From the IMG/VR virus record IMGVR_UViG_3300045999_013288, positions 1 to 44,394 of that record: a stretch of DNA of 44,394 nt; one strand, written 5' to 3'. Positions 6,601 to 35,495 of this stretch are shown in pieces. The stretch is from a virus. Under the pieces are notes generated by a model that saw nothing but the letters and a program-made list of their open reading frames with translations, was not told the DNA's origin and ran no database searches. The translations under genes and the position numbers were made by a program. Positions within the stretch are counted from its first letter, which is position 1, and every line of letters begins with the position of its first letter.

Positions 6601-9600
6601 AAGAGATACGGTGGATTTAACATACGATGGAATTTTTACATATTCGCTATATTCAAATCAAGGTCTTGGTACAACCGCGGCGCTGAATAAAAATTATAAT
6701 CTTGGTGGAAATAAACTTTATATAGAAGGTGGCGACAAAGCCAGTGGAGGTAAAACTGGGCCAATCAAATTTATAACGCAAAATATAACTGCTGGAACTC
6801 GACTTCCTTCTGTTGTTTCCATTGAAGTTGAAACTGGATACGAAAAAGATGAAAAAAATTCATTTTTAGAATCTGTTTTTAAATATAGATTTGATATTTT
6901 TGGAATATCCAGCGATCAGACAATATTAGATATAGGTAGAAAAAGCTATAATTTCATCAAATCTCAAAAAGTTCCTTTAATTTCTGGCGGAATTGCATCA
7001 AATTTGAGGAAAATTACTGTCAGAAAAAAAATATATTTTTATAAATTAGCTAGTGTTGATGAAAATGTTTTACTCGAAGAAATGTATTTCATTTCTGACA
7101 AAAAAGATACTATTGTAGATTTTAATTTAAATAAAATCGATACATTTACATTTCCTTCGCAAAATGGAGCTTTTTTGGCTAATGAACAAGCTTATCAATT
7201 TTTTACAGAATCGTCAGCTATATCAACCGTCGGTCAAAGCGTTGGTATTAGACATGAAAATTCTAAATATAATTTTTATTACTTCTTATGTTACAAAGAA
7301 GCGCTTGAAGGTTTTGCACAATCCATAGATTCGTCCGAGTTTGGGTCATGCATAAAAATAAATGAATTAAATTTAAATTCAGCTGCAAATATTTTAAAAA
7401 AATATAATCTATTAAAAGATTTTGAAATTCCAACTGTAACAACAGTAAAATCTAAAAGTCTAAAGTCGTCAAATGCTACTGGTGTAGATTGTTTTAGAAT
7501 AGAAAAAAGTTTTAATAGTTCGAGTAGAACTTATACTCAAGTTGATGTATATACTTTTGAATTTGATTGTGTAGAAGTGTTTGATCCAATAGACACTTCG
7601 TCAATTGAAGCTTATTCAAGCAATGTGTATTTTGCTGTTTATTTTGAATATTCCAAATATGGATTTTCGGAATTGCCATACATAATGAAGAAAACTAACG
7701 ATCCAGTTTACAGTACTCAACTTTTTATAAACGATTATCCATTTCCAAGCACATCAACTAGCCCATACAAAAATACAAAATACGTTTTAAGAATTTCTAT
7801 AAGAAGGTTAATGCCAGATACTGAAGAAGAGCTTTTGCGGCAATCCTATGGCACTAGAGACATTTTTACTAATAATTATTCAACCAGAAATACTTATTAC
7901 ATAAGTAAATTCATGTCGGTTGACAGCGAATACCCGACTGATTGGAACAATGATACTGGCAATATATTTACTAATTTTAATGGACTTTCTTTTTCAAATG
8001 AAGGAACTATTGCTCCGCCTTTTTTTAAATCAGGGACAGAGGTAGAGAGCCCCTCTAGCAACCTTATTAGTTACACATTTAAAGAGACTTTTGATTTAAA
8101 GTCTAAAAGGGCAGAAATTTTAAATTGGTTAAATAGCTTTAGGTTCACAAAAGATAATAAAATTGTAAATGTGGATGCTTTGATTGATACAATTACTAAA
8201 TATAATTTTCCCACTTGGTTTGAAGGAGGAGATCCGAATCTCAAGTATTCATTATCTACTTTTTATCGTGAATTTCCACTTGGAAAAAAATTAGCATCTC
8301 AAATACTCTCAACTCGCGCATTCAGTGTTCCATTATCACCGATAGCTGAAATTCCATCTTCGAGTGAAGTGGCTCAACAGCAAACCACAAAAGTTAATTT
8401 AAATATTGCTTATTGGACGCTCCTTGCAAAAGAAAAAAATAGATTATCTATTATTTTGCCAAGTTTTGATGCCGATAGTTTTTATGAAAACCTTACAAAT
8501 AAAAAAACTATAGAATATGTTGAATTAACTCAGTTTTTGGAGGATTTCGATAATAAATATGAATTAATTATAAATAGTGAAAGCCTCCAAGCTTTTTACT
8601 CAAAAAGCATAAGCTATACAAGAAATAATAGAGGAAGTGGACTCATGCTTTATGGTCAAAATAAAGGCAAGGCTAATTTTGATAATAGTAGAGGCGGTGG
8701 CAACGAAGATAAAATCTTTCCAGAAGGGGGTTTTCTTAAATTAGATCCTTTAGATGTGATAGATGCGGAAAGAAATCAGCAGATTCTTTATAGTTTTTAT
8801 GAACATATTTTTAAAGAGAATTTTGAAGGAAATTCAAAATCTGTTGATGGAGCAAAAATAAAAATTATTACAATTGATTATGATAAATCCTTGTCAATTC
8901 CTCAACAAGTCGCAAATGCCCTCAAAGATATAAATATATTTGGTGATGACGCACTTCCTGCAGATATCACTTCTAATAATAACGAGCCTAAATTTACAAA
9001 AACTTGGACGGTGAAATATGATTCAAAAACAGCGCCGTATACTGAGGCGGATCAAATTCTTGTTTTTAAAGGCGAACCCCCTTCCTTTGTGACCGAAGAT
9101 GATATTGCTAGAGCACAAGAGTTCGCAAAAAAAGTTATTATGATTTCACCTTCATCAGGAGGACAAGGTCAGAACTCCGCCACCAGCATCTTTGATATGA
9201 AGCCAACTAGTTATGCATATGGCAAATATTATTATGATGTTTATCAATTATCAAATGGTGATCTTTTGACTTTTGAAGGAGTTGTTTTCACAAAGAATTC
9301 GCCAGCTTGGAATATGTTTTTCCAACAGGGGCAGTATGGAGGGCAGTATGGAAATAATGTTTACAGAGTAATAGCAGCTCCAGAAAATATAGATATTAGT
9401 TCGTCCCAAGTTGAATCATCAAATGTTTTTTTAACAAATCTTCTTAAAAGATTAGAAGATACTGGAGAAAGTTTTATTTCTTATGAACAATTTGTGAGCA
9501 TGCCCCGCATAAACAATCAGGTTATCCAGCATTTGCGGCTTCTTGCCCAGCAGGGGGGAAAAAATTATTATTTTTCAACAATTAAATCAATTGAATCAGG

Positions 9601-20032: not shown

Positions 20033-23000
20033 ATGAGCATATTAATACTTTCCAATTCTAGTGGTCAAATAGAATGCGCAATTAGTCAATCTTATGATAG
20101 ACTGACAAAATCTTATGCAGGTCCATTAATCGCCTCTACAAATTCAGCGAGTGGATTTACAATTCAAAATGGGAACAAACAAACGGGCATGTTTGTGGGC
20201 AACTCATCGATTGATTTTCATAGAAATAATATTTGTTTTAAAGACAATTCAAATTTAAGATTTAATTTAAATCCAAATTATTGCTTAAGTATTTCTGGAA
20301 CCTCCTTGTATGTTTTTGGCACCGATGGAACCGTCTCACTTGGATCTGGAATAAATTTAAATTATAAAGGAATACAATCTTATTCGACTAATCCTAGTTT
20401 AATTTTAGTGAATTCCGACTCAAATTGTAATCAAGCAATTAGATTTTTAAATAAAAACACGGAACAAATATTTAATATTTGTCAACAAGGCGAAAATGGA
20501 ACTTCATTTTCTGGAAAATATTTAGATTTTAAAACTAGCTTGGGATCTAAATTTTGCTTAAGTGGAAATAGCATTTCTTTAAATGCTCAAATAAATCCAA
20601 ATTATTGTCAATCTTTTGGTGGAGACAGTTTATTTTCTGGAAATGTTTATATTCATGGAGAATTAAGTGGGTCGGGAAATTTTAATTTTTCTGGAGATTC
20701 AAATTCAAATTTTTGTGTTTCAAATAGAAGTTATTTTAATTCATCTGGATTTTTTCATTCTGGAGTTTGTGTTTGTAAGGGGTTAAATGTTACTGATTAT
20801 ATTTCTTCCAATTCTGGAATTTTTTGCACAATCAGTGGTAAATCATTATTTATAAATAATATCACTGGAGATAATTTTTGTTTTAAAAATTTTGGAACAA
20901 TTGGAGAAAATGGATTAAATTTAACTGGAATTAAAACAAATTGCATTTCTAGTCTGTGCTCTTGTAATATTTCAATTGTTTCTTTGGATGGTTTTTTAAA
21001 CGCAAATGTTCCAAACGTAAATATCACTGGAGATTTAAATTTATCTGGAAATATAAAAATATCATCAACAAATACTACTCAAAATTTTATTCGAGCAAAT
21101 TCTCTTGCGATCTGTTCTACTGGAAATAGTTCATTTAATAATTTAATTTCTGGTGGAGTATGTGCGCCTGGAACTTCTTTATTTGAGTGCGCGTGCGTAG
21201 GTTTGGGAAGATTTTATTGTGACACTCCGTCTTCTTTTTCTTGTTTCTTTCATCCAATATGCACGACTAGGGGATTAAAAACAACTTGTATTAGTGGGGA
21301 CGGAATCGTTGTCAGTTCTACTTGTTCAACTCTTGTTTGCGGCGAAAATATTCATTCAAGATGTTTTTCTGGGCAAACTGGTTTTTTTGCAAATTTATCT
21401 GGATGTGGAGTTGGAATTTTTGATCAAAGTTTAAGATTAAAATCTCTTGATCGAAATGGAGCTTCAATAGGAAATGTTTTATGCTGGTCAGATAGTTCTA
21501 ATTCTTGGGTTCCAGGCAATGTGCAGCTCACAAACAACGGAATTTCCCTTGCTTCTCCAAGTCCAAACACTTGTTTGGGTTCGCCTATTTGTTGGAATGG
21601 TACTGCTTGGGGGGTTGGACAAGCGTATGTAGCAACTGGACAAACTGGAACATTCGAAACTACTGGATATGCCCGCCGATGTTTTGTGACTACGGGTCAG
21701 ACGGGAGATTTGAGATTTATTAAATGCCCTTCAAATGCTGTAACGAACTGTGTGCTTTGCTATGATGGCACAAATTGGGTCGCTGGAACTGTAGCTGGAG
21801 GTGGTGGTGGAACTACCCTTACTGCTGGAAGCTCCGCAAATTCAGCTTTGTGTTGGAATGGGGTTGCTTGGGCAGCTGGACAGACATATGTAGCAACTGG
21901 TCAAACTGGACAATTCGTAGGCACGGGTCAAACTGGACAATTCGTAGGCACGGGTCAAACTGGAAATTTTTTAACTAATTTTTTTGGTACTGGACCAAAC
22001 AGAGTTATTCAAAGTCTTCCAAAAGAAAATTTAATTTTAATGGGGGTTGATAATTGCATACTTTCGCTAAATTCTGGAAATAATTTAATTATCGGTGGAT
22101 CAGGAATATGCATTGGTTCAGGAGCACAAAATATAGTTGCAATTGCTTCAACTTTAAGTTTGGACATAATAAGTGGCAAAAAAAATATTATTTTACTAGG
22201 AAGACAAGGAGATCTTTTTCCAGGTGTTGCTTATCAAGATGATACAACATACGTCAATAATTTGTGTGCTGATTGGAATATTTGCGCTGAGAATATGATA
22301 CAAGCAAATTTTCACATTTGTAGTAACACGAATATAATAGCACAAAGTAAAGTTTGCGGTTTTGATTCCGTTATATCTCCATGGGGTTGCTTCAGTAGTA
22401 TTTGTACCTCTGCAAATACATTTAAACTTTGTAATCTGGAGCAAGGTGGCGCAACACAAGGACAAGTTATTTGCTGGAATGGTACAAATTGGGGGGCTGG
22501 AGCCGCAGGTGGGGGTGGATCTGTAGATTTGACAGCTTATGTTCAAAAAACTGACACTGGTCAATTTGAAACCAGCGGATATGCTCGCCGATGTTTTGTG
22601 ACCACAGGTCAAACTGGTCAATTTTTAGGAACAAATCAAGTTAAATCAATCCCCTTAAAAAATTTATGCCAAGATAACGCAACGGCTGGACAAGTTATTT
22701 GCTGGAATGGAGCGCTTAACTGCTGGACTCCTGGAAATACAGCAGCAATAGATTTAAATTCCTATGTCTTAAAATCTGAAACTGGTCAGTACGAAAGTAG
22801 CGGATATGCTCGCCAATGTTTTTTAACAACTGGACAGAACATCTTTATCTCTGGTTTGTATATAACAGGATATAATATTACTGCGCGTAATTGTATTAGT
22901 GGTAATATAATAAGTCCATCTATTTGCTCTTTTAACGATATTTATTCTAATAGAAATATTCATATTAGAAATAATGCAATATATGGAGTATCTAGCGTTA

Positions 23001-23461
23001 GTTCCGAAGCAAATTCCCAATGTGGTTTTGTTTACGAAGGAGCGTTTGGTGTCTCTGGGAACTCTACTACTCATGCTCAAAACACTTTAATAGCTTCTTG
23101 CGAGTTTTTGAGTCTTATTAACGCAGGACAAGCAAGTGCTCCATACTATTATGCATATATAAATTTTGATATTTCAGCTTTTTATAAAAACAATCTTAGT
23201 CCATCTTATGGAATTATTAATTTAGATTGGTTTGGTAAGTTTTGTACGGCAACGTCAGCTTGGGTTAATGTGACCTGTACGCAAGTAAGAAAAAACGCCT
23301 ACGGCTTTAATCTTCCTAGTCCTACTTTTACTTTAAAACCGCCTATTAATGCATTTCCATTAATAAACTTTTGCCAATTTTCTTTTGGCGCTACTCCTCC
23401 CAATCCTCGAATATACACTTGTTACAGCGTAAAATATCGAGCGCACTTATTCGATAAATAA
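20033..23461 (+). CDS. large cysteine-rich repeat tail fibre / adhesin
   Basis: 1142 residues, dominated by Asn, Ser, Gly and Thr in short beta-strand repeats, as expected of a fibrous trimer. Repeats: NPNYC; CWNGxxW modules (near bases 21590, 21850, 22470 and 22700); GYARRCFVTTGQTG (three copies); and tandem GTGQTGQFV. About 58 cysteines are present (roughly 5%), spread over the whole length, often as F/I-C between strands. This is very unusual for a protein assembled in a reducing cytoplasm. Glycine runs (AGGGGGTT) look like hinges. The C-terminal 200 residues lack the repeats and may be the receptor-binding head. It could bind metal through the cysteines or cross-link after lysis. The shared motif links it to the gene at 18026. 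Confidence 0.72.
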   Translation: MSILILSNSSGQIECAISQSYDRLTKSYAGPLIASTNSASGFTIQNGNKQTGMFVGNSSIDFHRNNICFKDNSNLRFNLNPNYCLSISGTSLYVFGTDGTVSLGSGINLNYKGIQSYSTNPSLILVNSDSNCNQAIRFLNKNTEQIFNICQQGENGTSFSGKYLDFKTSLGSKFCLSGNSISLNAQINPNYCQSFGGDSLFSGNVYIHGELSGSGNFNFSGDSNSNFCVSNRSYFNSSGFFHSGVCVCKGLNVTDYISSNSGIFCTISGKSLFINNITGDNFCFKNFGTIGENGLNLTGIKTNCISSLCSCNISIVSLDGFLNANVPNVNITGDLNLSGNIKISSTNTTQNFIRANSLAICSTGNSSFNNLISGGVCAPGTSLFECACVGLGRFYCDTPSSFSCFFHPICTTRGLKTTCISGDGIVVSSTCSTLVCGENIHSRCFSGQTGFFANLSGCGVGIFDQSLRLKSLDRNGASIGNVLCWSDSSNSWVPGNVQLTNNGISLASPSPNTCLGSPICWNGTAWGVGQAYVATGQTGTFETTGYARRCFVTTGQTGDLRFIKCPSNAVTNCVLCYDGTNWVAGTVAGGGGGTTLTAGSSANSALCWNGVAWAAGQTYVATGQTGQFVGTGQTGQFVGTGQTGNFLTNFFGTGPNRVIQSLPKENLILMGVDNCILSLNSGNNLIIGGSGICIGSGAQNIVAIASTLSLDIISGKKNIILLGRQGDLFPGVAYQDDTTYVNNLCADWNICAENMIQANFHICSNTNIIAQSKVCGFDSVISPWGCFSSICTSANTFKLCNLEQGGATQGQVICWNGTNWGAGAAGGGGSVDLTAYVQKTDTGQFETSGYARRCFVTTGQTGQFLGTNQVKSIPLKNLCQDNATAGQVICWNGALNCWTPGNTAAIDLNSYVLKSETGQYESSGYARQCFLTTGQNIFISGLYITGYNITARNCISGNIISPSICSFNDIYSNRNIHIRNNAIYGVSSVSSEANSQCGFVYEGAFGVSGNSTTHAQNTLIASCEFLSLINAGQASAPYYYAYINFDISAFYKNNLSPSYGIINLDWFGKFCTATSAWVNVTCTQVRKNAYGFNLPSPTFTLKPPINAFPLINFCQFSFGATPPNPRIYTCYSVKYRAHLFDK
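21899..21965 (+). repeat. 27-bp tandem repeat in the fibre gene
   Basis: GGTCAAACTGGACAATTCG plus TAGGCACG, period 27 bases, repeats from 21899 and 21926, with a partial third unit from 21953. It encodes nine residues, TGQTGQFVG. The two full units are almost identical at DNA level, so the expansion is recent or held by gene conversion, and copy number could vary between relatives. Confidence 0.9.
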
Positions 23462-24538
23462 TTAATCTAAAATTAGTTCATTAAATTTTTGAATAAAAAT
23501 TTCTTTATTTTTTCTGAATTCATTTATTTGATCAAATCTATAAAAATGATTTGAAAAATAATGACCAAGTTTAGACATTTTTGAAACTCTTGTTTTGTTT
23601 AGTACAATTACTTCTTTAATGTACCCCCTAATCATATCCAAGAATTTTTTTCTAATCCAGATTTCTTTGCATATTTTATACTCCTCCAAATAAGATCCAG
23701 CCTTAAGTCTATTTTCAATGATATTCATGTTTTTTATTTTATTTGTAATGAAATCATATTCATGAACTCCTGACATTTGAGCTTCAAAAACAAGATTTGC
23801 TAAATCAAAAAATGGGCTTCCAACAAAAGAATTTTCAAAATTTATAAATTTATATAAATTTGAATTACTAATTATAGTACTTAAATTTAAATTTCCATGA
23901 ACAAATTGATTTAAATTTAATTTACTTTTTTTGTTTTCGTAAATTTTAAAAATTTCATCGTAGACGTTTTCATAAATTTTCTTTATAAAAGAAAAAATTT
24001 CTTCTTCTATCTTTTCTACATAGCATAAAATATTATCGAAACTTATTTGGTGATACTCTAAAAAAGATTTTGTATCATCTAAATATGGCCAAACTTCTTT
24101 AGGAGGACAATACTTATGTATTGTTGCTAGTGCGATATCTAGATTTTCATTATTTAGTAAATTTGAAGCTCCAATTTGAAACATATTATCTGAATATTCA
24201 AATGTTTGTATTGTGTAATATATAGTTTTTCCATATTCAATTTGATTTCTATCAATCATTTGTGGGCTGATTTGCAAATATTCTATTCCTTTTAAAATCA
24301 TATGTTCATAAAAAATTGGAACTGAATCAAAAGACATTTTTAAACAAAAGCCCTTATCTTGACTTTCGACTAAAAAAGAATCATATTCATCATTCTCGTC
24401 TATAAGTTTTATTTTCTTTAATGAATTTTCTCCATGCCTAGACATTATAAGTTTAATAATGTCAAATTGAGATTCTGAAATAAAATCTGCTTGTGGCGTT
24501 AAAAATAATCTTTGACTGTATGCTGAAGTTATGCTCAT
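23462..24538 (-). CDS. APH/choline-kinase-fold protein, probable pseudokinase
   Basis: 358 residues with the aminoglycoside-phosphotransferase fold: a possible nucleotide lysine (GFCLKMS, Lys67), the catalytic-loop position VHGNLNLSTI (214-222), the metal-loop position FINFEN (231-236) and the family tail SPFFDLANLVFE with Asp245. In active members the motifs read HGDxxxxN and IDFE/IDWE. Here the catalytic Asp is Asn216, the metal Asn is Thr221, and the DFG-like Asp is Asn233. Phosphotransfer is therefore doubtful; it may be a binding protein. I start at ATG 24538, because an in-frame GTG at 24565 lies inside the upstream terminator. A TGTAAT element sits 7 bases before the ATG. It converges tail to tail with the fibre gene, whose stop codon it abuts. 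Confidence 0.62.
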   Translation of the reverse strand: MSITSAYSQRLFLTPQADFISESQFDIIKLIMSRHGENSLKKIKLIDENDEYDSFLVESQDKGFCLKMSFDSVPIFYEHMILKGIEYLQISPQMIDRNQIEYGKTIYYTIQTFEYSDNMFQIGASNLLNNENLDIALATIHKYCPPKEVWPYLDDTKSFLEYHQISFDNILCYVEKIEEEIFSFIKKIYENVYDEIFKIYENKKSKLNLNQFVHGNLNLSTIISNSNLYKFINFENSFVGSPFFDLANLVFEAQMSGVHEYDFITNKIKNMNIIENRLKAGSYLEEYKICKEIWIRKKFLDMIRGYIKEVIVLNKTRVSKMSKLGHYFSNHFYRFDQINEFRKNKEIFIQKFNELILD

Positions 24539-24545
24539 ACTTATT

Positions 24546-24551
24546 ATTACA
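24546..24551 (-). promoter_or_regulatory. TGTAAT -10 element, 7 bases before ATG
   Basis: TTGTAAT immediately follows the terminator T-run and lies 7 bases before the ATG at 24538. It is the same position as in the AGTGTAAT class, although the base before TGTAAT differs (T for G). No -35 is visible. Confidence 0.4.
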
Positions 24552-24554
24552 ATA

Positions 24555-24584
24555 AAAAACCCCACCTTGTGGTGGGGTTTTTTG
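24555..24584. terminator. rho-independent terminator after the small basic gene
   Basis: AAAAAACCCCACC, loop TTGT, GGTGGGGTTTTTT: a seven-pair GC-rich stem with A- and T-runs on the two sides. Read leftward it ends the transcript of the 24607-24849 gene and insulates it from the APH-fold gene. Confidence 0.93.
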
Positions 24585-24858: not shown

Positions 24859-24887
24859 ATATTAAACAAATACTATCTCATTGTCAA
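24859..24887 (-). promoter_or_regulatory. near-consensus sigma70 promoter TTGACA-17-TAATAT
   Basis: Read leftward: TTGACA (24887-24882), a spacer of exactly 17 bases, TAATAT (24864-24859), then 9 bases to the ATG at 24849. Start-point spacing predicts a leader of 0-3 bases. It is the strongest-looking promoter in the window. Confidence 0.75.
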
Positions 24888-27273
24888 CAACTTTAAATGA
24901 AATTTCTTCTAAATTTTCTTTCTGAACAATAAATTTACAAAGTGGAAGTTCAAATTTATTTCTCAATATTTTTTGTACAGCTCTTGCGTTTGAGCCGTCT
25001 TTTTCAATCAGATCATAAAGATGTTCTAAAAGTTCTGGATTTTCATTAAATTTTATATTTTTCTCTAACAAGGAATTTTTTATCTCTTCTAATGAGAAAG
25101 ATATCATTTTAATGAGTCCATCTTTAGAAAACTTACTATTAAAAATTAAGACTTCGTCTAGTCTGGAAATTAACTCTGGTTTAAAAGTTCTTTTTAAGAT
25201 ATTTTCGTATTCGCTTTTTCTAGAGTCGTCATTTTTATGAACCACAAAACCCATTGATTTTGCCGATTCAGTTTCAGCGCCAACATTTCCAGTTAAAACA
25301 ATAATTGTATTAGAAAAATCAATTTTTCTATTGAAGTTGTCTATAATAGATCCTTCATCCATTATCTTTAATAAAATGTTTACTACGTCTGGATGAGCTT
25401 TTTCTACTTCATCAAATAGAATTAACGAAAAAGGATTATTTCTAACAAATTCAGAAAGAAGTCCTCCTTCTTCATATCCGACGTATCCAGCGGTTGTGCC
25501 CAAAAGTTTTGATACTGAATTTTTATCAATAAATTCTGCCATGTCAATTTGTAAAAAACAATTTGGTTTATCAAAAAATTTATCAGCTATAATTTTTGCA
25601 GTGTAGGTTTTCCCAACTCCAGTTGAACCAATAAAAAGTAAATTTGCTAATGTTTTTTTTCTTTTTTTGATTCCTGCTTTCGCGCATAAAAGTATCTCAT
25701 AAATTTTATTTAAAACCTCATCTTGATCAACAATAAGTTTTGACATATCTTCTTTGAGAGATAAAACGCTTTGTGTTGAACCTAATTTTAATCTTTCTTT
25801 ACTTAGTCCACTAACTCTTGAGAACATATCTAAAATGTGATCGTTTTCAATTTTAAATAAATTTTCAGCGGTTTTTTTAATCCAACTATTTCTTTTTGAA
25901 AGATAATCTTTCAATTTTTTTTCGCATTTTTCTTTTTTCTCATCAAGAGAAAGGTCTGATTTTTCCATATAATCAATTAATTTTTCTTCAATTTTTTTAA
26001 TATTATCTGGAACTTCGTACTTAATGATTTTTCCTTTTGCTCCAATTCTATCTAAAATATCAAACGCTTTATCTGGAAATCTTTTATAGGGAAGATATTT
26101 ATCAGACAATTCAATTATATTGTTAATTATGTCGTCATCATATGTAACTCCATGAAAATTTTCGTAAGAAGTTTTTGCCTTCTTTAAAATATCAAATGTC
26201 TGTTTTTTATTTGGTTCGTCGATATTTATTAATTGAAACCTTCTATTTAAAGCGGAATCTTTTTCAAAATATTTTTTATATTCAGCGTGAGTCGTCGCTC
26301 CAATGCATTTTATTTCTCCTCTTGCTAAGGCAGGTTTAATCATGTTGGCCAAATCTAAACTGCCTTCGTTTGAACCAGTTCCAATTATAGAGTGAATTTC
26401 ATCTATAAATAAAATGGCTTGACTATCTTCTTTTAATTCTTCAATCAAACCCTTGAATCTTTCTTCAAATTGCCCTCTGTACTTTGTGCCTGCGACAAGA
26501 GCACTTAAATCAAGCGAATATATTTTAAATCCAGTAAAAAATACTGGACAATCACCTTGATTAATTTTTTGAGCCAAAGCTTCAATGATTGCGGTTTTTC
26601 CAACGCCAGCGTCTCCAACTAAAACTGCATTATTCTTTACTTTGCAAGAAAGAACTTCAATTAATTTAGACAGCTCACTTTCTCTTCCACTAATTTTTAC
26701 ATCTAATTTTAGGACAGATTTATTTAAATCAACACAATATTTCTCGGTAAACTTACCTTCTTCTTTTTTGATTTCTTTTTTATCTTTGCCTTGTTCTTGA
26801 TAGGGGTTTCCCGAATCTTGTTCGGAAGGGTGAAGTGTGGATAAAATTGCATCTCCAATTTCTTCTACTGGAACTTCTTTTGATATTAAATATTTTTTTA
26901 AAAAACCATCTTTTTTAAAGAGTCCATATAAAATATGTTCAATTCCAATAAATTGATGATCTAAATCTCTGGATAATTCATGGCTATATCTTAAGCTATT
27001 TTCTAGATCAATTGACCACCAATCTTCCATTTTTTGAGCTTTTTCAAAAAACGAAGGATCTATTTTGGGCAACTCTAAAACTAAACAATTTTTTAAAGCG
27101 TCTAGGTTTACTTTAAAATGAGAAAGAATGTTTATGATTGCGGTGGTGCCATTATCGAGTAAAGCATAAAATAAATGGGCTGAATTTACCTTTTGATGTT
27201 TGTATTTATTTGCAACTTCAATTGCCTCTTCGATAGATTTTTTTGCCCGTGGAACTAAATTATATTTTTCCAT
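24862..27273 (-). CDS. ClpA/ClpC-type AAA+ unfoldase
   Basis: 803 residues in the full HSP100 layout. Clp-N double repeat (about 1-145: KSIEEAIEVANKYKHQKVNS); linker; NBD1 with Walker A GDAGVGKTA (about 220) and Walker B ILFIDEIHSIIGTG; a short helical insert (about 410-470), far shorter than the ClpB middle domain; NBD2 with Walker A GSTGVGKT (about 555) and Walker B LILFDEVEKAH. After NBD2 Walker B, KSMGFVVHKND (about 673) matches the (I/L/V/M)-G-(F/L) loop that docks ClpA/C/X on ClpP. It should unfold proteins and feed them to a ClpP peptidase, presumably the host's, since none is encoded here. I prefer ATG 27273, 8 bases after a promoter element, over ATG 27279. Confidence 0.9.
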   Translation of the reverse strand: MEKYNLVPRAKKSIEEAIEVANKYKHQKVNSAHLFYALLDNGTTAIINILSHFKVNLDALKNCLVLELPKIDPSFFEKAQKMEDWWSIDLENSLRYSHELSRDLDHQFIGIEHILYGLFKKDGFLKKYLISKEVPVEEIGDAILSTLHPSEQDSGNPYQEQGKDKKEIKKEEGKFTEKYCVDLNKSVLKLDVKISGRESELSKLIEVLSCKVKNNAVLVGDAGVGKTAIIEALAQKINQGDCPVFFTGFKIYSLDLSALVAGTKYRGQFEERFKGLIEELKEDSQAILFIDEIHSIIGTGSNEGSLDLANMIKPALARGEIKCIGATTHAEYKKYFEKDSALNRRFQLINIDEPNKKQTFDILKKAKTSYENFHGVTYDDDIINNIIELSDKYLPYKRFPDKAFDILDRIGAKGKIIKYEVPDNIKKIEEKLIDYMEKSDLSLDEKKEKCEKKLKDYLSKRNSWIKKTAENLFKIENDHILDMFSRVSGLSKERLKLGSTQSVLSLKEDMSKLIVDQDEVLNKIYEILLCAKAGIKKRKKTLANLLFIGSTGVGKTYTAKIIADKFFDKPNCFLQIDMAEFIDKNSVSKLLGTTAGYVGYEEGGLLSEFVRNNPFSLILFDEVEKAHPDVVNILLKIMDEGSIIDNFNRKIDFSNTIIVLTGNVGAETESAKSMGFVVHKNDDSRKSEYENILKRTFKPELISRLDEVLIFNSKFSKDGLIKMISFSLEEIKNSLLEKNIKFNENPELLEHLYDLIEKDGSNARAVQKILRNKFELPLCKFIVQKENLEEISFKVVDNEIVFV

Positions 27274-27281
27274 CTTCATAT

Positions 27282-27290
27282 TTTACACTA
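27282..27290 (-). promoter_or_regulatory. AGTGTAA-class -10 element for the Clp gene
   Basis: Leftward ATAGTGTAAAAT with TGTAAA at 27287-27282. It lies 8 bases before the ATG at 27273 and 2 bases before the ATG at 27279. The 8-base distance equals that of other copies and favours the inner start. Confidence 0.5.
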
Positions 27291-29840
27291 TTTCAATTCT
27301 GAAAGTTTCATGTAGATTTTTTCATCTAGTATGAAAATATTGTCGAGGAATATCGTATCTGCCGATTTCTTCCCTGTCAATACTACAACGCTATCTTCTT
27401 TGGGTGTTTTGCCACCGTTTTCAAAATATTGCGTCATCTTATTTTGATGACCGTCCATTAACATTGCAGAAATTGATCCATATTCATCTTGAATATTTAC
27501 TCTTAAATATTTATTTCCATTTCTACTTGTTCTTTTTTCGGCTTCGGTTACCCAACCTACAATTTTAACTTGTGAGTTATTTTCTGTAGATTTAAATTCA
27601 AGAGTGTTTGCAAAACTATTCTCGTTTCCATCTTTAAAAATTTCTCTAATTTTGTGAGAATAAGAATAGCCCAAAAGCTTTTTTTCAAAAAACCAATTCG
27701 CAAATTTTTGATGTTTCACATTTTTTTCAAAAATTTCTTTATATGGTTCATATTTCTTTTTAAATGTTTCAAATCTTTTTTCAGTCATGATTTTTTTATT
27801 GTCATCTCCAATCATTGAGTCTTTTACCACAAGTTTGATGGAGCTTAAAATATCATAAGCATGAAGTTGTCCAAGGTTTACGAATTGGATTTTTTCCCTA
27901 TCAGTTAAAATATTAAATGTCTGAGCCTCTAAAACAAGCCTGCATCTATCTTTAGAGAAGCTGTCTAGTGCTCCAGCTTGAATTAAAGCAGACAACGCCC
28001 CAATATTCAATCCAGATTCTTTTGCTGCTATAAAAATATCATATTTATTTGCAAATATAGATTGCCTAAACTCAATCAAAGACTCTAGCACCTTCGTTGA
28101 AATACCTTTAATAGAATTTAAACCATATCTAATGTCTTTGCCCTCTATTTTAAAATCTGATTCAGACTTTGCTAAATCGGGCGGCAAAAGCTTCATGTCG
28201 AAATAACAAAGCTCTTTTGAGATTTTAGAAATTTCTTCATGAGGATCTGGTTCATATTGAGTTGATTTAAGCAGGCTCAAAAAGAATTCTTGTGGATAAT
28301 TAAATTTTAAATATACAGTCCAAGCCGCAAGAATTGCGTAAGAAATTGAGTGAGATTTATTGAAGCTATAATTGGCACTATCTTCAGCAACCTTCCAAAG
28401 AATAGATCCAATTTCTTCTGCAAGATTGTTTTCTTTAATTTTATCTTCAATCTTTTGTTTCCACGCTTCAATTTGATCTACTTTTTTCTTCCCCACAATT
28501 CTTCTGAGCTGTTCAGCTTCGTCAAGAGTAAAGCCAACCTTAACAGCCATTTTCATCAACTGTTCTTGATAAAGTGGAATGCCTCCCGTATATGAAAGTT
28601 CGTCATCAAAAAATGGATTAACGCTTTGGAAATTTCCAGTTTCTGTATATGTGGCATAATTTTGTAAAAACTCTAAAGCTCCAGGTCTTGCAATTGCCAC
28701 TACGGCAGATAGCTCTTCTAAACTTTTTGGTTTTACTTTTTGGCAAACTCTAAAATTTGTATCAGCCTCAATTTGAAATAGTCCTTGAGGGTTTTCGAGC
28801 TGCTGCAAATTATTATAAATCAAAGAGCTAGATAGGTCGATATCTTCTAATTTAATACCAGTTTCTTTTGCTACATTCTGAAGCACGGATAAAGTACGAA
28901 GTCCAAGAATGTCAAACTTAACAGTAAGCTCGGATACGTTATTCATGTCGTATCCAGAGACTAAATCTCCATCGCTTGTTTTTTGAACTGGCATTAGATT
29001 GCTCATTTCTTCATGCGAAATTGCAATTCCAGATGGATGCACGCCAGTATTTTTATTTAAATTTTCAAGCTTGCGTGCAATTTCATATACTTGTGGATGG
29101 AGGTTTGCAAACGCTCTAAATTTTTCTGACTCTTTAAATGCTTCTGTTAAAGGTGCAACTTTACCAAATTTTTTAGGAATGCAGTCACTGATTTCATTTA
29201 CTTTTGTTTCATCTAACTCTCCAACTATTTTACCGCATTCCTTAATGCAAAGCTTGCTACTCAAAGTATTCATCGTAAGAATTTTTGAGGTTTTTCCTTT
29301 GTACTTTTCTTCAATATAGTGAATAACCTCTTTTCTTCTTTCGTAACTGATATCATTATCAACGTCCGCTAATAGCGAGCCATCCAAATAAGTAACTCCA
29401 TTGTGCTCAATTTTTTTAGCACGACTTTTTGATACAAATCGCTCAAAGAAAAGCCCATATTTAATTGGGTCTACTTTAGTGACTCCAATAAGATATAAGA
29501 TTAAACTTCCTGCTGCGCTGCCGCGACCTGGTCCAGTAGGAATATCATTCTCATGGCAAAAATTTAATATGTCCCAATTTAATAAAACGTAATCGATAAA
29601 TCCAAGCTCTTGAAAAATAGACAGTTCAATTTTAGCTCTGTCATAGTACTCTTGTTTGTTTTGTAATTTGTCAATACCTTTGTCTTTAACTCCCTTATGG
29701 GCAAGCTTTCTCAAGAAATCAAAATTAGATGACACGCTTGGAATATTGAGCATGTCATAATATTTGTTTTCTATTTTAATTTGAGGCAAAAGAACCCCAA
29801 CAGCTGTCGGGGTCTCATATTTTTGAAAGTCTTTGAACAT
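27288..29840 (-). CDS. dnaE: DnaE-type DNA polymerase III alpha, polymerase core without PHP domain
   Basis: 850 residues. Family C polymerase motifs are in order: GPGRGSAAG (103-111), the active-site aspartates in LADVDND (Asp159, Asp161), HPSGIAI (about 268), the third catalytic Asp310 in KFDILGL, then the thumb/fingers, helix-hairpin-helix (GLNIGALSALIQAGALDSF) and a C-terminal OB fold (VKIVGWVTEAEKRTSRNGN). The family-typical PHP domain that should come first is missing. The protein begins at MFKDFQKYETPTAVG, which corresponds to the short segment after the PHP domain. The PHP-like part is the gene at 30455-31210, with an exonuclease gene between. The exonuclease stop and this start are one base apart (TAAcATG), so synthesis is coupled. 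It should copy the phage genome. Confidence 0.93.
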   Translation of the reverse strand: MFKDFQKYETPTAVGVLLPQIKIENKYYDMLNIPSVSSNFDFLRKLAHKGVKDKGIDKLQNKQEYYDRAKIELSIFQELGFIDYVLLNWDILNFCHENDIPTGPGRGSAAGSLILYLIGVTKVDPIKYGLFFERFVSKSRAKKIEHNGVTYLDGSLLADVDNDISYERRKEVIHYIEEKYKGKTSKILTMNTLSSKLCIKECGKIVGELDETKVNEISDCIPKKFGKVAPLTEAFKESEKFRAFANLHPQVYEIARKLENLNKNTGVHPSGIAISHEEMSNLMPVQKTSDGDLVSGYDMNNVSELTVKFDILGLRTLSVLQNVAKETGIKLEDIDLSSSLIYNNLQQLENPQGLFQIEADTNFRVCQKVKPKSLEELSAVVAIARPGALEFLQNYATYTETGNFQSVNPFFDDELSYTGGIPLYQEQLMKMAVKVGFTLDEAEQLRRIVGKKKVDQIEAWKQKIEDKIKENNLAEEIGSILWKVAEDSANYSFNKSHSISYAILAAWTVYLKFNYPQEFFLSLLKSTQYEPDPHEEISKISKELCYFDMKLLPPDLAKSESDFKIEGKDIRYGLNSIKGISTKVLESLIEFRQSIFANKYDIFIAAKESGLNIGALSALIQAGALDSFSKDRCRLVLEAQTFNILTDREKIQFVNLGQLHAYDILSSIKLVVKDSMIGDDNKKIMTEKRFETFKKKYEPYKEIFEKNVKHQKFANWFFEKKLLGYSYSHKIREIFKDGNENSFANTLEFKSTENNSQVKIVGWVTEAEKRTSRNGNKYLRVNIQDEYGSISAMLMDGHQNKMTQYFENGGKTPKEDSVVVLTGKKSADTIFLDNIFILDEKIYMKLSELK

Positions 29841-29841
29841 G

Positions 29842-30471
29842 TTAGATATTAATTTCTTGAATTTGTTTTAGGAAAATTTTAAATGTCATTTCAATATCAT
29901 ACAAAGCGTTATGAAGTTTTGTAGGATCATGTTCAATTTCATATTTTTTTAATAAAGATGCTTGACTAGTTTTAATTTTTTTATCTCTATGAGAAATGTA
30001 TTTATATTGAGTAAGAATATCATTTCTTGGAAAATCTTTGTTGTTTAAAGCTAGAGCCATTGCTAATGCACGAACATCTAAGATTCTAGGTATATAAGAG
30101 TGATCGGGATCTAAGCCGCAATGCTTTCTTAAGATATTTAAGATGTAAACATCGAAGTTGAGCAAGTTTTGTCCGACAATAATATAGCTTGGGTCAGATA
30201 AGACTGACCATAAATCACTTAAAACTTTAAGTGGTTCTTCAGCTTTTGATTCATAATAAAACTTATTAAAGTTTGTAATCTTTGCAGCTCCGTCTGAAAC
30301 CTTTAAGTCTGGCCATTTAACATATCTATCATTTTTAGTTTTAATAACTTTACCTTTGGCTGTAATCCAAGAAATTTGCCAAGGTCTAGATGCAACCAAG
30401 TTTAAACCTTCAGTTTCGGTATCCAGAATGACATAATTCTGGTTAAAATTAAATCTAAGAAGATCTTCCAT
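29842..30471 (-). CDS. DnaQ-family 3'-5' proofreading exonuclease
   Basis: 209 residues with a complete DEDDh set: Asp17 and Glu19 (ILDTETEGL), Asp107 (QNLLNFDVYIL), His187 and Asp192 (HNALYDIEMT). It removes mismatched 3' ends, as the epsilon subunit or as the exonuclease domain of PolC does. It lies between the PHP-like gene, which it overlaps by 17 bases, and the polymerase gene (1 base apart), exactly at the domain border of DnaE. That points to a stoichiometric three-part replicase. No clamp-binding peptide is obvious. Confidence 0.92.
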   Translation of the reverse strand: MEDLLRFNFNQNYVILDTETEGLNLVASRPWQISWITAKGKVIKTKNDRYVKWPDLKVSDGAAKITNFNKFYYESKAEEPLKVLSDLWSVLSDPSYIIVGQNLLNFDVYILNILRKHCGLDPDHSYIPRILDVRALAMALALNNKDFPRNDILTQYKYISHRDKKIKTSQASLLKKYEIEHDPTKLHNALYDIEMTFKIFLKQIQEINI

Positions 30472-31210
30472 TTTTTTCTAAGTAGCTTTCCCAGCAAAAT
30501 TCATCAGATCCAAAATGATTTAAATTTGGACTAGATAAAGAAATTTCTTTTCCAAATGATCTATTTGTTAGGCATTTATAAGTTTGAAATGCGAATACGT
30601 CTTTTTTATTCTTGTAAAGAATTGTTTTTGTCAAGATTGGATTGGAACTAATTTCTTTAACTTTTGAAATTAAAATAGAATCAAATGGTAAATTATTGTT
30701 TTCTATAAAATATGTTGGCTGAGTAAAATTGAAATTTGGCAAACAATTTGTAAAGCTACAATTATTAGTAAAAATATATGAATCGTAAAAAGGAATTGCC
30801 AATCTTAAATCTTCTTCCTTCCACATTGATGCTAAGGTTTTACAATCAATAAAACCATTAAATTCACAAAAAGCAGTAGAGTATATTTTATTTAAAAGTT
30901 TGCACCCATTGTCATTTTTGGCAAATACAATAATCTTATGTTTGGATTGCTCTTTGTTTTCATCTAAAACGTCATTGCAACAACTAAGCCTTAATCCAAA
31001 AATTAATTGGATATTGAGGCTCTTGCAAGATTTATGAGCTTCAAGAAATCCAATCATTGAATCTTCAACTAAAATAATTTGACTTAAATTATTTTCTTTT
31101 GCTATTTGCAATATTGAATCAGCCCTTGAATCATCGGGAGCATCCTCTGGTTTTTCAAGAGTGAGTATGCTTTTTCCAATTGAGAAATTGGATTTAAATA
31201 GAGGAACCAT
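30455..31210 (-). CDS. degenerate PHP domain of DNA polymerase III alpha, separate gene
   Basis: 251 residues collinear with the first ~250 residues of DnaE. VPLFKSNFSIGKS takes the place of F.HLH.HS.YSLLDG; IILVEDSMIGFLEAHKSCKS with IQLIFGLRLS takes the place of ALTDH..M.G...FY..... with I.PI.G.E. The end FQTYKCLTNRSFGKE and FGSDEFCWESYLEK matches the 'LlcI.tg....... f.s..fYlks.eEm' segment that leads into the polymerase. The metal-binding histidines of active PHP domains are absent, so it should be structural only. The frame ends exactly where the polymerase gene resumes. It has a sigma70-type promoter 6 bases before its ATG. Confidence 0.78.
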   Translation of the reverse strand: MVPLFKSNFSIGKSILTLEKPEDAPDDSRADSILQIAKENNLSQIILVEDSMIGFLEAHKSCKSLNIQLIFGLRLSCCNDVLDENKEQSKHKIIVFAKNDNGCKLLNKIYSTAFCEFNGFIDCKTLASMWKEEDLRLAIPFYDSYIFTNNCSFTNCLPNFNFTQPTYFIENNNLPFDSILISKVKEISSNPILTKTILYKNKKDVFAFQTYKCLTNRSFGKEISLSSPNLNHFGSDEFCWESYLEKNGRSS

Positions 31211-31252: not shown

Positions 31253-32254
31253 CTATTTACGCAAGAAAGCTGGGCATCCCTTGTAGTCAAAAAGTACAAA
31301 CTGTTTATCTGGATATTTTTCTTTGTAGTTATTCAAATCTTCAACAAAACAAGAATCAATTATTTTGCCAGACTCTTCTTTTATTTGATAAAATTTAAAA
31401 GGAAATTTTGCTGGGCAATACCATTTTGGAGTGCCATCCACCTTTTTTTCATCTGGAGACTTTGCATAACCACACATCAATGGGCCGCCAAAAGAATTAT
31501 CTTTGGGATAATCGGCCTTTGCTGCTAAATTTTTTACAGCAGTTTTTTCGTTAAAATTATCAAGATAATTTTGAATTGCTGTAAGCTGCTGTTCAAATCC
31601 TTCTATTTCTTCGTCACTTATTTCTGGCATCTTTACAACGCCTTTTTCATGAGGGTATTTTAAAAATACAAATTCACTTTTTATGCTTTTTAGTTCTGGA
31701 TACATTCTTTTAACAGCAAGAACGTACATAAGATCTTGCACATTATCTTCTAAATCTTTTCCTTTAAAAATTTCTTTGCTTGATTTGAAATCTCTAATTA
31801 AAGCACAATCTTTTGTAATAAAAAGTTTATCGATAAAACCTTTAATTTTAAAATTAATTTTTTCATCTTCAAAATTTAAATCAAAATCTTTTTCAGAAAT
31901 GCTTTCCTCCAATTTGCCCATCGATTCTCCATAAAAGTCGTAATGCAAACCATTGAGTATCATTTCTTTAATTGACTCAATATTTTTTTCGTCTGAAACG
32001 CCTTCTTTTTCAGCAACTTGCCGAAGTAAATCTTGAACTATCTTGCTGCCAGATATGCAGTTTTTTTTAATTATTTTATTAAATTCTTTTTTATTCTCTC
32101 CAAGGAATTCAAAAATTTCGTGACAAACCGTTCCTCTTTTTGCCCCATCATTGCTTTTATCTGGGGCTTTTAAAAAATATTTGAACCAATAAAGCCAACT
32201 GCAAGATTGAACTGTTTTGATTCTACTTGCGGATAAAGTTGTTTTTTCAGACAT
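31253..32254 (-). CDS. RecB/Cas4-type PD-(D/E)XK exonuclease, possible Fe-S cluster
   Basis: 333 residues from ATG 32254, which overlaps the primase stop (ATGTCTGA). Visible features: SASRIKTVQSCSWLYWFKY (S.s.i..y..CP..y.y), GTVCHEIFE (the G...H helix), then INFKIKGFIDKLFI and CALIRDFKSSKE, the GxhD and D-x-K core, and QDLMYVLAVKR (the Q/Y motif). This is the RecB/AddB/Cas4 nuclease module. One cysteine near the start (Cys18) and several near the end (MCGYAK, WYCPAKF) could hold a 4Fe-4S cluster as in AddB and Cas4. Likely role: 5' or 3' resection that produces single strands for the RecA protein or the putative annealing protein. Confidence 0.8.
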   Translation of the reverse strand: MSEKTTLSASRIKTVQSCSWLYWFKYFLKAPDKSNDGAKRGTVCHEIFEFLGENKKEFNKIIKKNCISGSKIVQDLLRQVAEKEGVSDEKNIESIKEMILNGLHYDFYGESMGKLEESISEKDFDLNFEDEKINFKIKGFIDKLFITKDCALIRDFKSSKEIFKGKDLEDNVQDLMYVLAVKRMYPELKSIKSEFVFLKYPHEKGVVKMPEISDEEIEGFEQQLTAIQNYLDNFNEKTAVKNLAAKADYPKDNSFGGPLMCGYAKSPDEKKVDGTPKWYCPAKFPFKFYQIKEESGKIIDSCFVEDLNNYKEKYPDKQFVLFDYKGCPAFLRK

Positions 32255-33260
32255 TGCATTTTTTGATAAACTTATTGAGCTTATCTTTGTTGAATTCTTT
32301 ATTGTTTTTTTGACAGAAATGTAAAATATCACTTATTGCCATTGGCTGCAAGCTTTTCCAATCTTCAAACGATATATCTTTTTGCTGCATCTCTGAAAAA
32401 TCGTTTAAAATTGGAAGTTTAATTCTTAACAAGTCCAAATCAAAGAAAGAGGATAGTTTTATCAAAATTTTTATTGCAGCAAGTAGTCCTCTATTTTCTT
32501 GTTTTTCTGAATCGTTATTTGTTGCTATAATAATAGACTTAAGATCTTGAGAGATTAAGTAATTAATTATAGCTGGACTGCAATCTAGACCAAATGCAAC
32601 AATATTATTGTGAAATCCGTTTGCCGTCAATGCCATGCTATCTCCAATACTTTCAACTAAAATAATTTCTTGATTTTCAATTTGTGGAAAATCTGGAATC
32701 ATGAGTGGATAGATCCAATTTGATTTTTTTCCAATTAATTTCCATTTTGGAACTTCTTCGTCTTCGTCGGTAACTTTTCTTCCTGCAAAACCAAAAATCT
32801 GCCCCATTTCATTATAAATTGGAAATACCGTTCTCCTATACATTCTGCCTGCGGAAGCTAAACCGCATTTGTATAATTTTTGAATTTCTTCTGGGATTGC
32901 TCTCCTTTTATAAAAGGAGTAATTTGGAAATAGCTTTTTTAAGCAGTCTTCTGGATAAATTTTTTCCATCTCTAATCTTTCTTTTTTCTCAATTACGGTT
33001 TGAGAGCGAGATTCGCTTTCAATTAAATATTTTGAGATAATGGAATAGTCAGTTGTATTTAGTGTTAATTCAACAAGTTTTTTAAACGGCATTGGAGACT
33101 TGTTTTGAACAAAATCTTGCCACACGCCAGTATCTTTATAAATTTTTAAAGAAGAATTATTATTTCCATTTCTATATACCGCTTTGGTTCTCCAATGATT
33201 TCCATAATCATTGAGTTCATAGCCTAATTCAAGCAAAGAGGATTGGATTTTAGATCTCAT
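32247..33260 (-). CDS. DNA primase, TOPRIM type, without zinc-finger cysteines
   Basis: About 337 residues from ATG 33260, which overlaps the helicase stop; an in-frame ATG at 33320 would add 20 residues running through helicase code. The N-terminal segment HWRTKAVYRNGNNNSSLKIY with DTGVWQDFV has the layout of a CHC2-like domain but without the metal-binding Cys/His residues. The RNA polymerase part follows: GLASAGRMYRRTVFPIYNE and GFAGRKV, then the TOPRIM strand EIILVESIGDSMAL (Glu, Asp) and SIIIATNNDSE. It makes primers for the DnaE-type polymerase and works with the helicase encoded just upstream in the same operon. Confidence 0.8.
   Translation of the reverse strand: MRSKIQSSLLELGYELNDYGNHWRTKAVYRNGNNNSSLKIYKDTGVWQDFVQNKSPMPFKKLVELTLNTTDYSIISKYLIESESRSQTVIEKKERLEMEKIYPEDCLKKLFPNYSFYKRRAIPEEIQKLYKCGLASAGRMYRRTVFPIYNEMGQIFGFAGRKVTDEDEEVPKWKLIGKKSNWIYPLMIPDFPQIENQEIILVESIGDSMALTANGFHNNIVAFGLDCSPAIINYLISQDLKSIIIATNNDSEKQENRGLLAAIKILIKLSSFFDLDLLRIKLPILNDFSEMQQKDISFEDWKSLQPMAISDILHFCQKNNKEFNKDKLNKFIKKCNV
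32902..32919. repeat. perfect 18-bp palindrome inside the primase gene
   Basis: CTCCTTTTATAAAAGGAG reads the same on both strands. It lies in the codons for YSFYKRR and could be a protein-binding site, a hairpin in mRNA, or chance in AT-rich sequence. No second copy was noticed. Confidence 0.5.
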
Positions 33261-34770
33261 CGAAGTTTGGAATTCTTTGCCCCATAAACTCTGAATCTTC
33301 GTCAAGATCGGCTCTTCCATTTAAGAAAGCTGCAATGTCACGAAGATCTCCTTTTTCGGTAATTGAAAAATTTTTAAATTCTAAATTAATAAAATTATTT
33401 CTCATTGTATCTCCAATTCTAACTGGCTCTAACGCACCAGCTAAATCTGAACCAAGATGGCGATGCTTAATACATATGAACTTATGAGTTCCAAATTGAT
33501 TCCCCTCGCTTTGAATTTCGTCAATTGTTTTTTTTCTTAAAATAAACATGTGAGAGCTGAATTGAGTAATTCTGTCTGAAAGGGAAACAATACTTTCATC
33601 GTCAACTACATTTTGTGAATTTCTGTTATTTGTAATTCCAGTCCTATTGCTTTGAACTGAAGTAATCATGGGAATGATTGGCTTTCCATCAATTAGCATT
33701 TCTTTTTGAATGCATTTTTTAAATTTGTCAACCATTTCTCCAACTAGTTGCCATTCATTTTTATCGCTTCTTTCTGAAGTTGTTTTAATATAATCAAAAC
33801 TAAAAACCATTCTATTGCCTCTACCTATCGTAGAATAATAGAATCTTTTTAAGGTGTTAATCATTGAATCAACGTCTAGCCCACCGACATTGTAATAAAA
33901 AAATTTCATTTTTTTAATTTTAGGCCAAACTTCTCTTACTTTTTCAACAACTGATTCGCCAGCTTTTCTCCATTGGCCACTCTCTAAAAGATGCATTGGA
34001 ACTCCAGATAAAGCCGTACATTGCCTCATCATTAACTCCTCTTTGCTCATTTCTCCATTGTCAAAATGTAAAACTGGAACATCATATATTGATGCGACTT
34101 TTGTTGCATAGTCCATGCAAAACTGTGTTTTACCAACGCCAGAACGGGCAACAATGACCGTAATATTTCCAGGTCTTAAAAGGGAGCCATATATGTCATT
34201 TATCTTTTTATGAGGCCCCATTAAACCAAATTCTTTAATAGGATTATTTCCCCTGTCCTCAATGAGATACTCCATGTCATCATAGATATTTTGTGGAGTA
34301 TCGGCTCCTATCTCGTAGAAGTTTATTTTAGAATTATAAATCTTGTCGGCAGAACTAACAATGTCCAGATAGGAACTTTCTGGAGGCATTGTTTTCATTT
34401 TTTTACCAACATCAATAGAAGATTCGTAAATCTCTCTTCTTATTGTATATTTTTTTAATTCCTTTGCAGCCTTGAGAGTTGTTGACTCAGAGACTCTTCT
34501 CATTCCTAAAGATTTAATATAATCTGCAACATTAAAATTATCCTCAAAAGAAATTCCTATAGATTGAATTCTTTGCGCTATAATAACATCGTCAACATCT
34601 TCGGCATTCTCAATTGCTTGTTTAATTATGGTAAAAATAGTTTTATTTAGGATTGAATCCTCAGAATAAAAATCTCTTTCATTGACAAAAGAGCAGATGT
34701 CAATGAAAGAGTTGGGGTTTTTTATTAAGCCTGCAAGTAATTGTTTCTCTAGTTCATATGAATAGATCAT
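33250..34770 (-). CDS. dnaB: replicative DNA helicase, DnaB family
   Basis: 506 residues. N-terminal helical domain (EKQLLAGLIKNPNSF), linker (residues about 120-185), RecA-like motor with Walker A ARSGVGKT (208-215), the helicase motif VPVLHFDNGEMSKEELMMR and a Walker B-like strand MVFSFDYIKT. A later motif with SVQSNRTG corresponds to motif 3/4, and KHRHLGSD sits near the DNA-binding loop. It unwinds DNA at the fork as a hexamer and recruits the primase. It heads the operon helicase-primase-RecB-like nuclease. The promoter overlaps the stop codon of the preceding gene, and its -10 is 6 bases before the ATG. Confidence 0.9.
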   Translation of the reverse strand: MIYSYELEKQLLAGLIKNPNSFIDICSFVNERDFYSEDSILNKTIFTIIKQAIENAEDVDDVIIAQRIQSIGISFEDNFNVADYIKSLGMRRVSESTTLKAAKELKKYTIRREIYESSIDVGKKMKTMPPESSYLDIVSSADKIYNSKINFYEIGADTPQNIYDDMEYLIEDRGNNPIKEFGLMGPHKKINDIYGSLLRPGNITVIVARSGVGKTQFCMDYATKVASIYDVPVLHFDNGEMSKEELMMRQCTALSGVPMHLLESGQWRKAGESVVEKVREVWPKIKKMKFFYYNVGGLDVDSMINTLKRFYYSTIGRGNRMVFSFDYIKTTSERSDKNEWQLVGEMVDKFKKCIQKEMLIDGKPIIPMITSVQSNRTGITNNRNSQNVVDDESIVSLSDRITQFSSHMFILRKKTIDEIQSEGNQFGTHKFICIKHRHLGSDLAGALEPVRIGDTMRNNFINLEFKNFSITEKGDLRDIAAFLNGRADLDEDSEFMGQRIPNFDEI

Positions 34771-35081: not shown

Positions 35082-35090
35082 ATTACACTA
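35082..35090 (-). promoter_or_regulatory. AGTGTAAT-class -10 element, 7 bases before ATG
   Basis: Leftward TAGTGTAAT with TGTAAT at 35087-35082, 7 bases before the ATG at 35074. It overlaps the end of the preceding nuclease gene. Confidence 0.5.
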
Positions 35091-35495
35091 CAAATAAACA
35101 TCAAACTTTTCAAAAAGTTCTTTATTTAAAGTATCTGAAGGGTAGATCTCTATTAATTTAATATTATTTAAATTACAAAAATCAATTTTGCTAACGTCTC
35201 TTTTTATTTGCTTCAGATAAGCGTTTCTAGTGTTGTGAAAAAAGGGGGTATATTTAAAATGCTGTTGACCTTGAACTTCGATTGCAATTTTTTTATTTGC
35301 GTTATAAAAATCTAAAGATAATCTAGTCCCAGCAATTCTCATTTCTTCAAAAACCACATCTCCTTGCCAAAATTTTTTTAAAAAGCTTTTTACATCAAAT
35401 TGAAATTTGCTTCTGCTTTTTTTTTCCCACTTTATAAGAAATTGTTTTATATTTTTAACTGTTTTTTCTTTTCCATCAAGTGTTTTAAATTTCAT
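35088..35495 (-). CDS. PD-(D/E)XK endonuclease, DUF559/Vsr-like
   Basis: 135 residues. The core reads VVFEEMRI, then RLSLDFYNANKKIAIEVQGQ with QHF. The D...ExQ pattern with a preceding Glu is the catalytic site of Vsr-like/DUF559 nucleases; 'DFY......iaiEvdG.qH' is the usual form. C-terminal RDVSKIDFCNLNNIKLIEIY is the expected closing strand. Alternative roles are mismatch or branch cleavage, or cutting of host DNA. It overlaps the RecA gene stop by 4 bases, so it probably works in the same repair or recombination pathway. Confidence 0.78.
   Translation of the reverse strand: MKFKTLDGKEKTVKNIKQFLIKWEKKSRSKFQFDVKSFLKKFWQGDVVFEEMRIAGTRLSLDFYNANKKIAIEVQGQQHFKYTPFFHNTRNAYLKQIKRDVSKIDFCNLNNIKLIEIYPSDTLNKELFEKFDVYL

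Follow-up and report, generated by a model that had tools for sequence, protein, structure and literature searches.

Three consecutive minus-strand genes in the 44,394-base virus record IMGVR_UViG_3300045999_013288 (IMG/VR), analysed over its full length and hereafter called the window, encode the PHP domain of a DnaE-type DNA polymerase, a DEDDh-type exonuclease and a DnaE-type polymerase core as separate proteins (Table 1). The record also carries minor-tail and tail-assembly genes. We consider it probable that the three proteins are subunits of one proofreading phage replicase, with the PHP domain serving in trans as a structural or docking subunit. A first-pass annotation of the DNA had proposed a three-gene replicase made from DnaE parts, combining an active-looking DnaQ-type proofreader with a dead PHP domain. 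Our analysis supported that proposal, with assembly of the three products remaining a prediction, and reproduced its open reading frames (ORFs), their 17-base overlap and their 1-base spacer exactly. No description of this arrangement was found in the literature searched, most subscription journals being outside the reach of that search. An uncultured tailed-phage group makes, as three proteins, bacterial-type replicase parts that in cells are mostly one chain. The PHP domain has been called strictly conserved in bacterial replicative polymerases (PMC3666897), and the system amounts to a natural detachment experiment on a domain thought to be inseparable from the polymerase.

The polymerase core is of the DnaE type and not of the PolC type. 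Its Pfam domains included DNA_pol3_alpha (PF07733, 1e-60), the finger domain (PF17657), HHH_6 (PF14579) and the OB domain (PF01336), and its profile matched DnaE chains in the PDB at 1e-109. The NCBIfam models listed for it were DnaE models, with no PolC-type model such as TIGR01405 among them. The palm aspartates D159 and D161 were present in 141/142 sequences; D310 was present in 133/142, with gaps in its other rows. Structural alignment used a model of the polymerase from a close relative (locus L001) rather than of the window protein itself. This model scored Z 29-40 against DnaE structures versus 20-28 against PolC, and aligned from its own residue ~10 to Escherichia coli DnaE from ~270 onward and to Thermus aquaticus (Taq) DnaE 285-1122. 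The polymerase chain ends ~10 residues past the part aligned to the Taq DnaE OB domain and is thus too short to include a C-terminal tau-binding domain.

The first of the three proteins passed the Pfam cut-off for PHP (PF02811, 4e-7). In its structural model (predicted local distance difference test (pLDDT) 89.8, predicted template modelling score (pTM) 0.88), residues 1-249 aligned to residues 6-249 of E. coli DnaE (Z 21.7) and to Taq DnaE 7-259 (Z 22.2), compared with a Z of only ~11 against free-standing PHP phosphoesterases. Both the profile match and the structural match agree with the earlier assignment of this frame to the DnaE PHP domain. Together, the PHP and polymerase proteins tile E. 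coli DnaE from residue 6 to ~1023 with a single gap of ~20 residues at the seam. Since the PHP model ends at DnaE 249 and the polymerase resumes at ~270, the cut corresponds to the PHP/polymerase domain border. The claim that the polymerase frame continues DnaE beyond this border, with its polymerase domains present, therefore held apart from the ~20 residues missing at the seam. A similar division was apparent in PHROG 405 (phage DnaE, 1190 positions), of which the first protein covered positions 61-288 and the third 324-1082.

All nine metal ligands of the active PHP nuclease motif, HHDHEH[C/H]DH, were replaced in the PHP protein (profile alignment, E 2e-10), as the first-pass annotation had suggested. 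Judged from its sequence, the protein is catalytically dead, i.e. no longer a nuclease. Three of the former ligand positions are now basic, namely K13 (K/R in 124/125), R74 (R/K in 128/128) and K92 (K/R in 127/128), where column counts were taken over 128 rows and residues were mapped by alignment, not by side-chain structural superposition. The ratio of non-synonymous to synonymous substitution (dN/dS) was ~0.07-0.12 against near relatives and, because synonymous sites were near saturation, is readable as purifying selection only. It is conceivable, although we rate it as unlikely, that the former metal site has been rebuilt as a conserved basic pocket and that the independent subunit has acquired a new non-catalytic role, binding DNA or the proofreader and possibly aiding processivity where no sliding clamp was recognised.

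Between the PHP and polymerase genes lies the DEDDh exonuclease gene described at first pass, the product of which matched RNase_T (PF00929, 2e-10). The catalytic residues D17, E19, D107, H187 and D192 were present in 127-128 of the 128 exonucleases, one row being gapped, and D132 was likewise conserved. The top match was PHROG 192, a phage family annotated as 'DNA polymerase exonuclease subunit'. In both NCBIfam and PDB profiles, the protein scored higher against the PolC exonuclease than against epsilon. Its chain stops 17 residues past D192 and has no epsilon-like C-terminal PHP-binding tail.

Relatives were collected through five viral-contig scans and one genome-contig scan, yielding 186 non-identical loci that contained the exonuclease gene. 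Every one of the 178 non-identical loci showing all three genes had the order PHP, exonuclease, polymerase on one strand (178/178), demonstrating near-universal co-occurrence and order within a large phage clade. In the first locus set, missing members were accounted for by contig ends, except in two distant loci (L181 and L182) in which no exonuclease was recognised. The survey for fused forms that had been recommended with the original annotation found none in these loci (0/178), PHP being a separate gene in all 178, and further-out scans seeded with distant members returned separate genes only, with no fused relative. An additional full-length DnaE with intact PHP, the presence of which had been raised as a point against the three-gene replicase, was not seen in thirteen large relatives (72-203 kb), each of which had a single DnaE core and lacked any further PHP match, although these records may be incomplete. 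The frame relations among the three genes varied between relatives, and >150 bases, often with another gene, separated two members in 42/178 loci. ORFs inserted between members included an FkbM-type methyltransferase, a mannose-6-phosphate-isomerase-type cupin, an IMP dehydrogenase (IMPDH)/GMP reductase and a TnpB-type OrfB. The IMP dehydrogenase/GMP reductase was located between PHP and exonuclease in L042:1263-2312 (Pfam) and L059:4380-5354 (similar by eye), and the TnpB-type (IS605 OrfB) gene occupied the same interval in L177:1286-2446, a contig from a Bacteriovorax metagenome-assembled genome (MAG).

Further division of the polymerase gene was also observed. In L170:9614-12598, a phage-like contig from a Verrucomicrobiales MAG, the core was split again into two ORFs between SFNK and SHS. 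The first half carried ~98 extra residues starting with Cys and the second 38 extra residues ending with Asn, giving the appearance of a split intein (Pfam Intein_splicing 2e-4, under its cut-off) at a site that we take to be near the cyanobacterial DnaE intein site. In L250:9001-12048, the polymerase gene was found in two frames, of 200 and then 780 residues.

In the polymerase tree the split family formed one clade (Shimodaira-Hasegawa-like approximate likelihood-ratio test (SH-aLRT) 100) on a long stem, indicating that the split is old within the family. The tree contained few references and long branches, so that any sister group of the split family read from it would be provisional. It had been suggested that the gene border might mark an intermediate stage at which the exonuclease insertion was being gained or lost. 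This did not find support, as the split family is a single clade on a long stem and no fused relative was found, leaving the idea of a step toward PolC unsupported. The exonuclease may have been inserted into a DnaE gene or recruited after fission. MAG contigs with these genes were binned to Flavobacteria, Bdellovibrionota, Woesebacteria, Verrucomicrobiales, a Lokiarchaeote bin and others, a spread that is probably binning noise. No close cultured phage was identified, the top polymerase identity being 29%, and a tblastn search with the PHP and exonuclease proteins against 50,697 phage records gave zero matches.

Comparison with known systems set the three-gene arrangement apart from each of them. 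As in DnaE1-type Pol III alpha (E. coli, T. aquaticus), the PHP fold and core are collinear with intact polymerase aspartates, and as in the E. coli alpha-epsilon pair the DEDDh proofreader is separate. Unlike DnaE1-type alpha, however, the phage PHP is a protein of its own, the chain lacks ~20 residues at the seam as well as the C-terminal domain that binds tau, and the exonuclease, without an epsilon-type tail, is encoded between the PHP and core genes. PolC likewise has PHP, exonuclease and polymerase encoded together, and in NCBIfam and PDB searches the phage exonuclease scored best against that of PolC, but PolC is one chain with a PolC-type core and has its exonuclease inserted inside the PHP domain (PMC3919608). 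The phage system consists of three chains and is not PolC, because its PHP is uninterrupted and its core is DnaE-type; the 'PolC-like order' of the first-pass annotation was accordingly not upheld, the exonuclease gene lying at the PHP/polymerase border. Bacteroidetes DnaE1 with a fused exonuclease (PMC3919608; seen here in L186 and L187) also brings a DnaE core and a DnaQ-type exonuclease together, but as exonuclease-linker-PHP-polymerase in one chain rather than as PHP, exonuclease and polymerase in three, and the L186/L187 cores were not neighbours of the split-family cores in the tree.

The two split C-family polymerases used for comparison are cut elsewhere. Group 2.2 jumbo phages have Pol III alpha in more than one gene, but there the cut falls within the polymerase, giving nucleoside triphosphate-binding and Mg/template-binding parts in distant genes, and this minimal Pol III alpha occurs beside a family B polymerase (PMC7824862); in the present family the split falls at the PHP border, and searches revealed no second DnaE. 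Cyanobacterial split-intein DnaE also occupies two genes, but its break lies within the polymerase and trans-splicing restores one chain, whereas no intein was seen here at the borders of the PHP or exonuclease genes. Where PHP similarity could be detected in the cultured phages examined, it was in the same chain as polymerase sequence. This included Sundance, with PHP and polymerase in one chain, while Alicyclobacillus KKP_3916 and Cellulophaga phi13:1 were cut elsewhere. A 2026 survey of bacterial polymerases described PHP as universal in C-family polymerases, scored its activity by the HHDHEH[C/H]DH motif, and reported that exonucleases occur within PolC and as fusions to some DnaE1 proteins (PMC12926913). 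The three-gene split bears on the repeated origin of exonuclease-PHP-polymerase arrangements, alongside epsilon plus DnaE, the Bacteroidetes fusion and the PolC insertion.

In the proofreading replicase that we favour, the 850-residue protein would carry out DNA synthesis through its DnaE palm, fingers, HhH and OB elements, with the 209-residue protein acting as its presumed 3'-5' proofreader. The 251-residue PHP chain would pack in trans on the palm at its N-terminal edge, where DnaE has its attached domain, and would probably hold or position the exonuclease. Co-translation from the closely packed and mostly overlapping genes would deliver the three chains at the same time, with translational coupling perhaps matching their amounts. 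Such a role for PHP is consistent with its description as a major structural element whose integrity modulates how stable and how active E. coli Pol III is (PMC3666897), with the reported loss of PHP metal ligands where a separate proofreader is present (PMC3666897) and with the location of the E. coli epsilon-binding site on the PHP domain (PMC3919608). Several observations weigh against this assembly. The exonuclease is without the C-terminal PHP-binding segment of epsilon, so its docking is likely to differ from that of epsilon. A single-chain model of the L001 exonuclease and polymerase, in which the intervening TAA was read as Gln, was meant to show docking; its polymerase part was well modelled, and its exonuclease part had pLDDT mostly of 20-45 with no usable placement on the polymerase, so that it carries no information on the interface. 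The 42 loci with wider spacing indicate that tight coupling is not required. Finally, in the distant member represented by L182/L207, a distance of 5.4 kb, occupied by helicase, primase and nuclease genes, separates PHP from the polymerase, and a search of the 31-kb fragment recognised no exonuclease. The three-gene system offers a way to study the docking of a proofreader that has no epsilon-type tail and, with PHP as a separate gene that is sometimes apart from the polymerase, the function that PHP retains after losing its nuclease activity.

Other explanations were weighed against the replicase with PHP in trans. The polymerase core might work without PHP, with the PHP-fold protein doing another job in the operon, e.g. 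binding DNA, a nucleotide or a host protein via the rebuilt basic pocket. The nearly invariant Lys/Arg at three former ligand positions and the location of the L182 PHP gene away from its polymerase gene are in line with such a job, but the model is far nearer to DnaE PHP than to free-standing PHP over its whole length and PHP strictly co-occurs, in order, with the polymerase, making this explanation improbable. Still less probable is that host subunits (epsilon, clamp) serve as the partners of the exonuclease and polymerase, without a dedicated three-part phage complex. Pfam searches of the large relatives recognised no DnaN domain over its cut-off and no delta'/gamma clamp-loader domain, although divergent clamps could escape such searches, and no conserved Qxx[LM]F clamp-binding motif was seen by eye. 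The lack of clamp and clamp-loader matches suggests that host processivity factors may be used; however, clamp absence is weak evidence because the records may be incomplete, and almost all relatives encode a phage exonuclease in which every catalytic residue is kept.

It is scarcely credible that programmed frameshifting, stop read-through or protein splicing joins the three frames into a single chain, or that sequencing or assembly errors split them. The frames do lie close together, and those of the L001 exonuclease and polymerase are divided by a single in-frame stop. Against this, the same arrangement was observed at 178 loci, and the gene borders showed no intein sequence. The genes inserted between members in many loci, together with the differing frame relations, exclude a single frameshifted gene. 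The relatives therefore ruled out an assembly error or a single frameshifted or read-through gene.

Table 1 Coordinates of the replicase genes, their junctions and neighbouring operon genes in the window.
Feature	Position	Strand	Evidence
Detached DnaE PHP-domain protein, 251 aa	30455-31210	-	ORF, Pfam, model, alignment
DEDDh 3'-5' exonuclease, 209 aa	29842-30471	-	ORF, PHROG, Pfam, NCBIfam, PDB profiles, alignment
DnaE-type polymerase core without PHP, 850 aa	27288-29840	-	ORF, Pfam, PDB profile, structural alignment
PHP gene end/exonuclease gene start, 17-base overlap	30455-30471	-	
Exonuclease/polymerase junction TAA-C-ATG (stop-start), 1-base spacer at 29841	29838-29844	-	
ClpA/B-like AAA+ gene, immediately downstream of the polymerase gene	24862-27279	-	
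RecB/Cas4-type PD-(D/E)XK nuclease, same operon	31253-32332	-	
DnaG-type primase	32247-33320	-	
DnaB-type helicase	33250-34770	-	

The three genes belong to a minus-strand replication operon, with the helicase, primase and nuclease genes upstream and the ClpA/B-like AAA+ gene downstream. A similar AAA+ ORF directly followed the polymerase in 67/68 relatives tested, its size ranging from ~800 down to ~500 residues. An HNH homing-endonuclease-like gene was located at window positions 35088-35495, between the UvsX-like and DnaB genes. Elsewhere in the window, two large ORFs at 20033-23461 (1142 residues) and 23462-24565 (367 residues) had zero Pfam matches, and a 2947-residue ORF at 3686-12529, with a Phage-tail_3 domain near residues 2213-2356, probably encodes a tail-tip protein.

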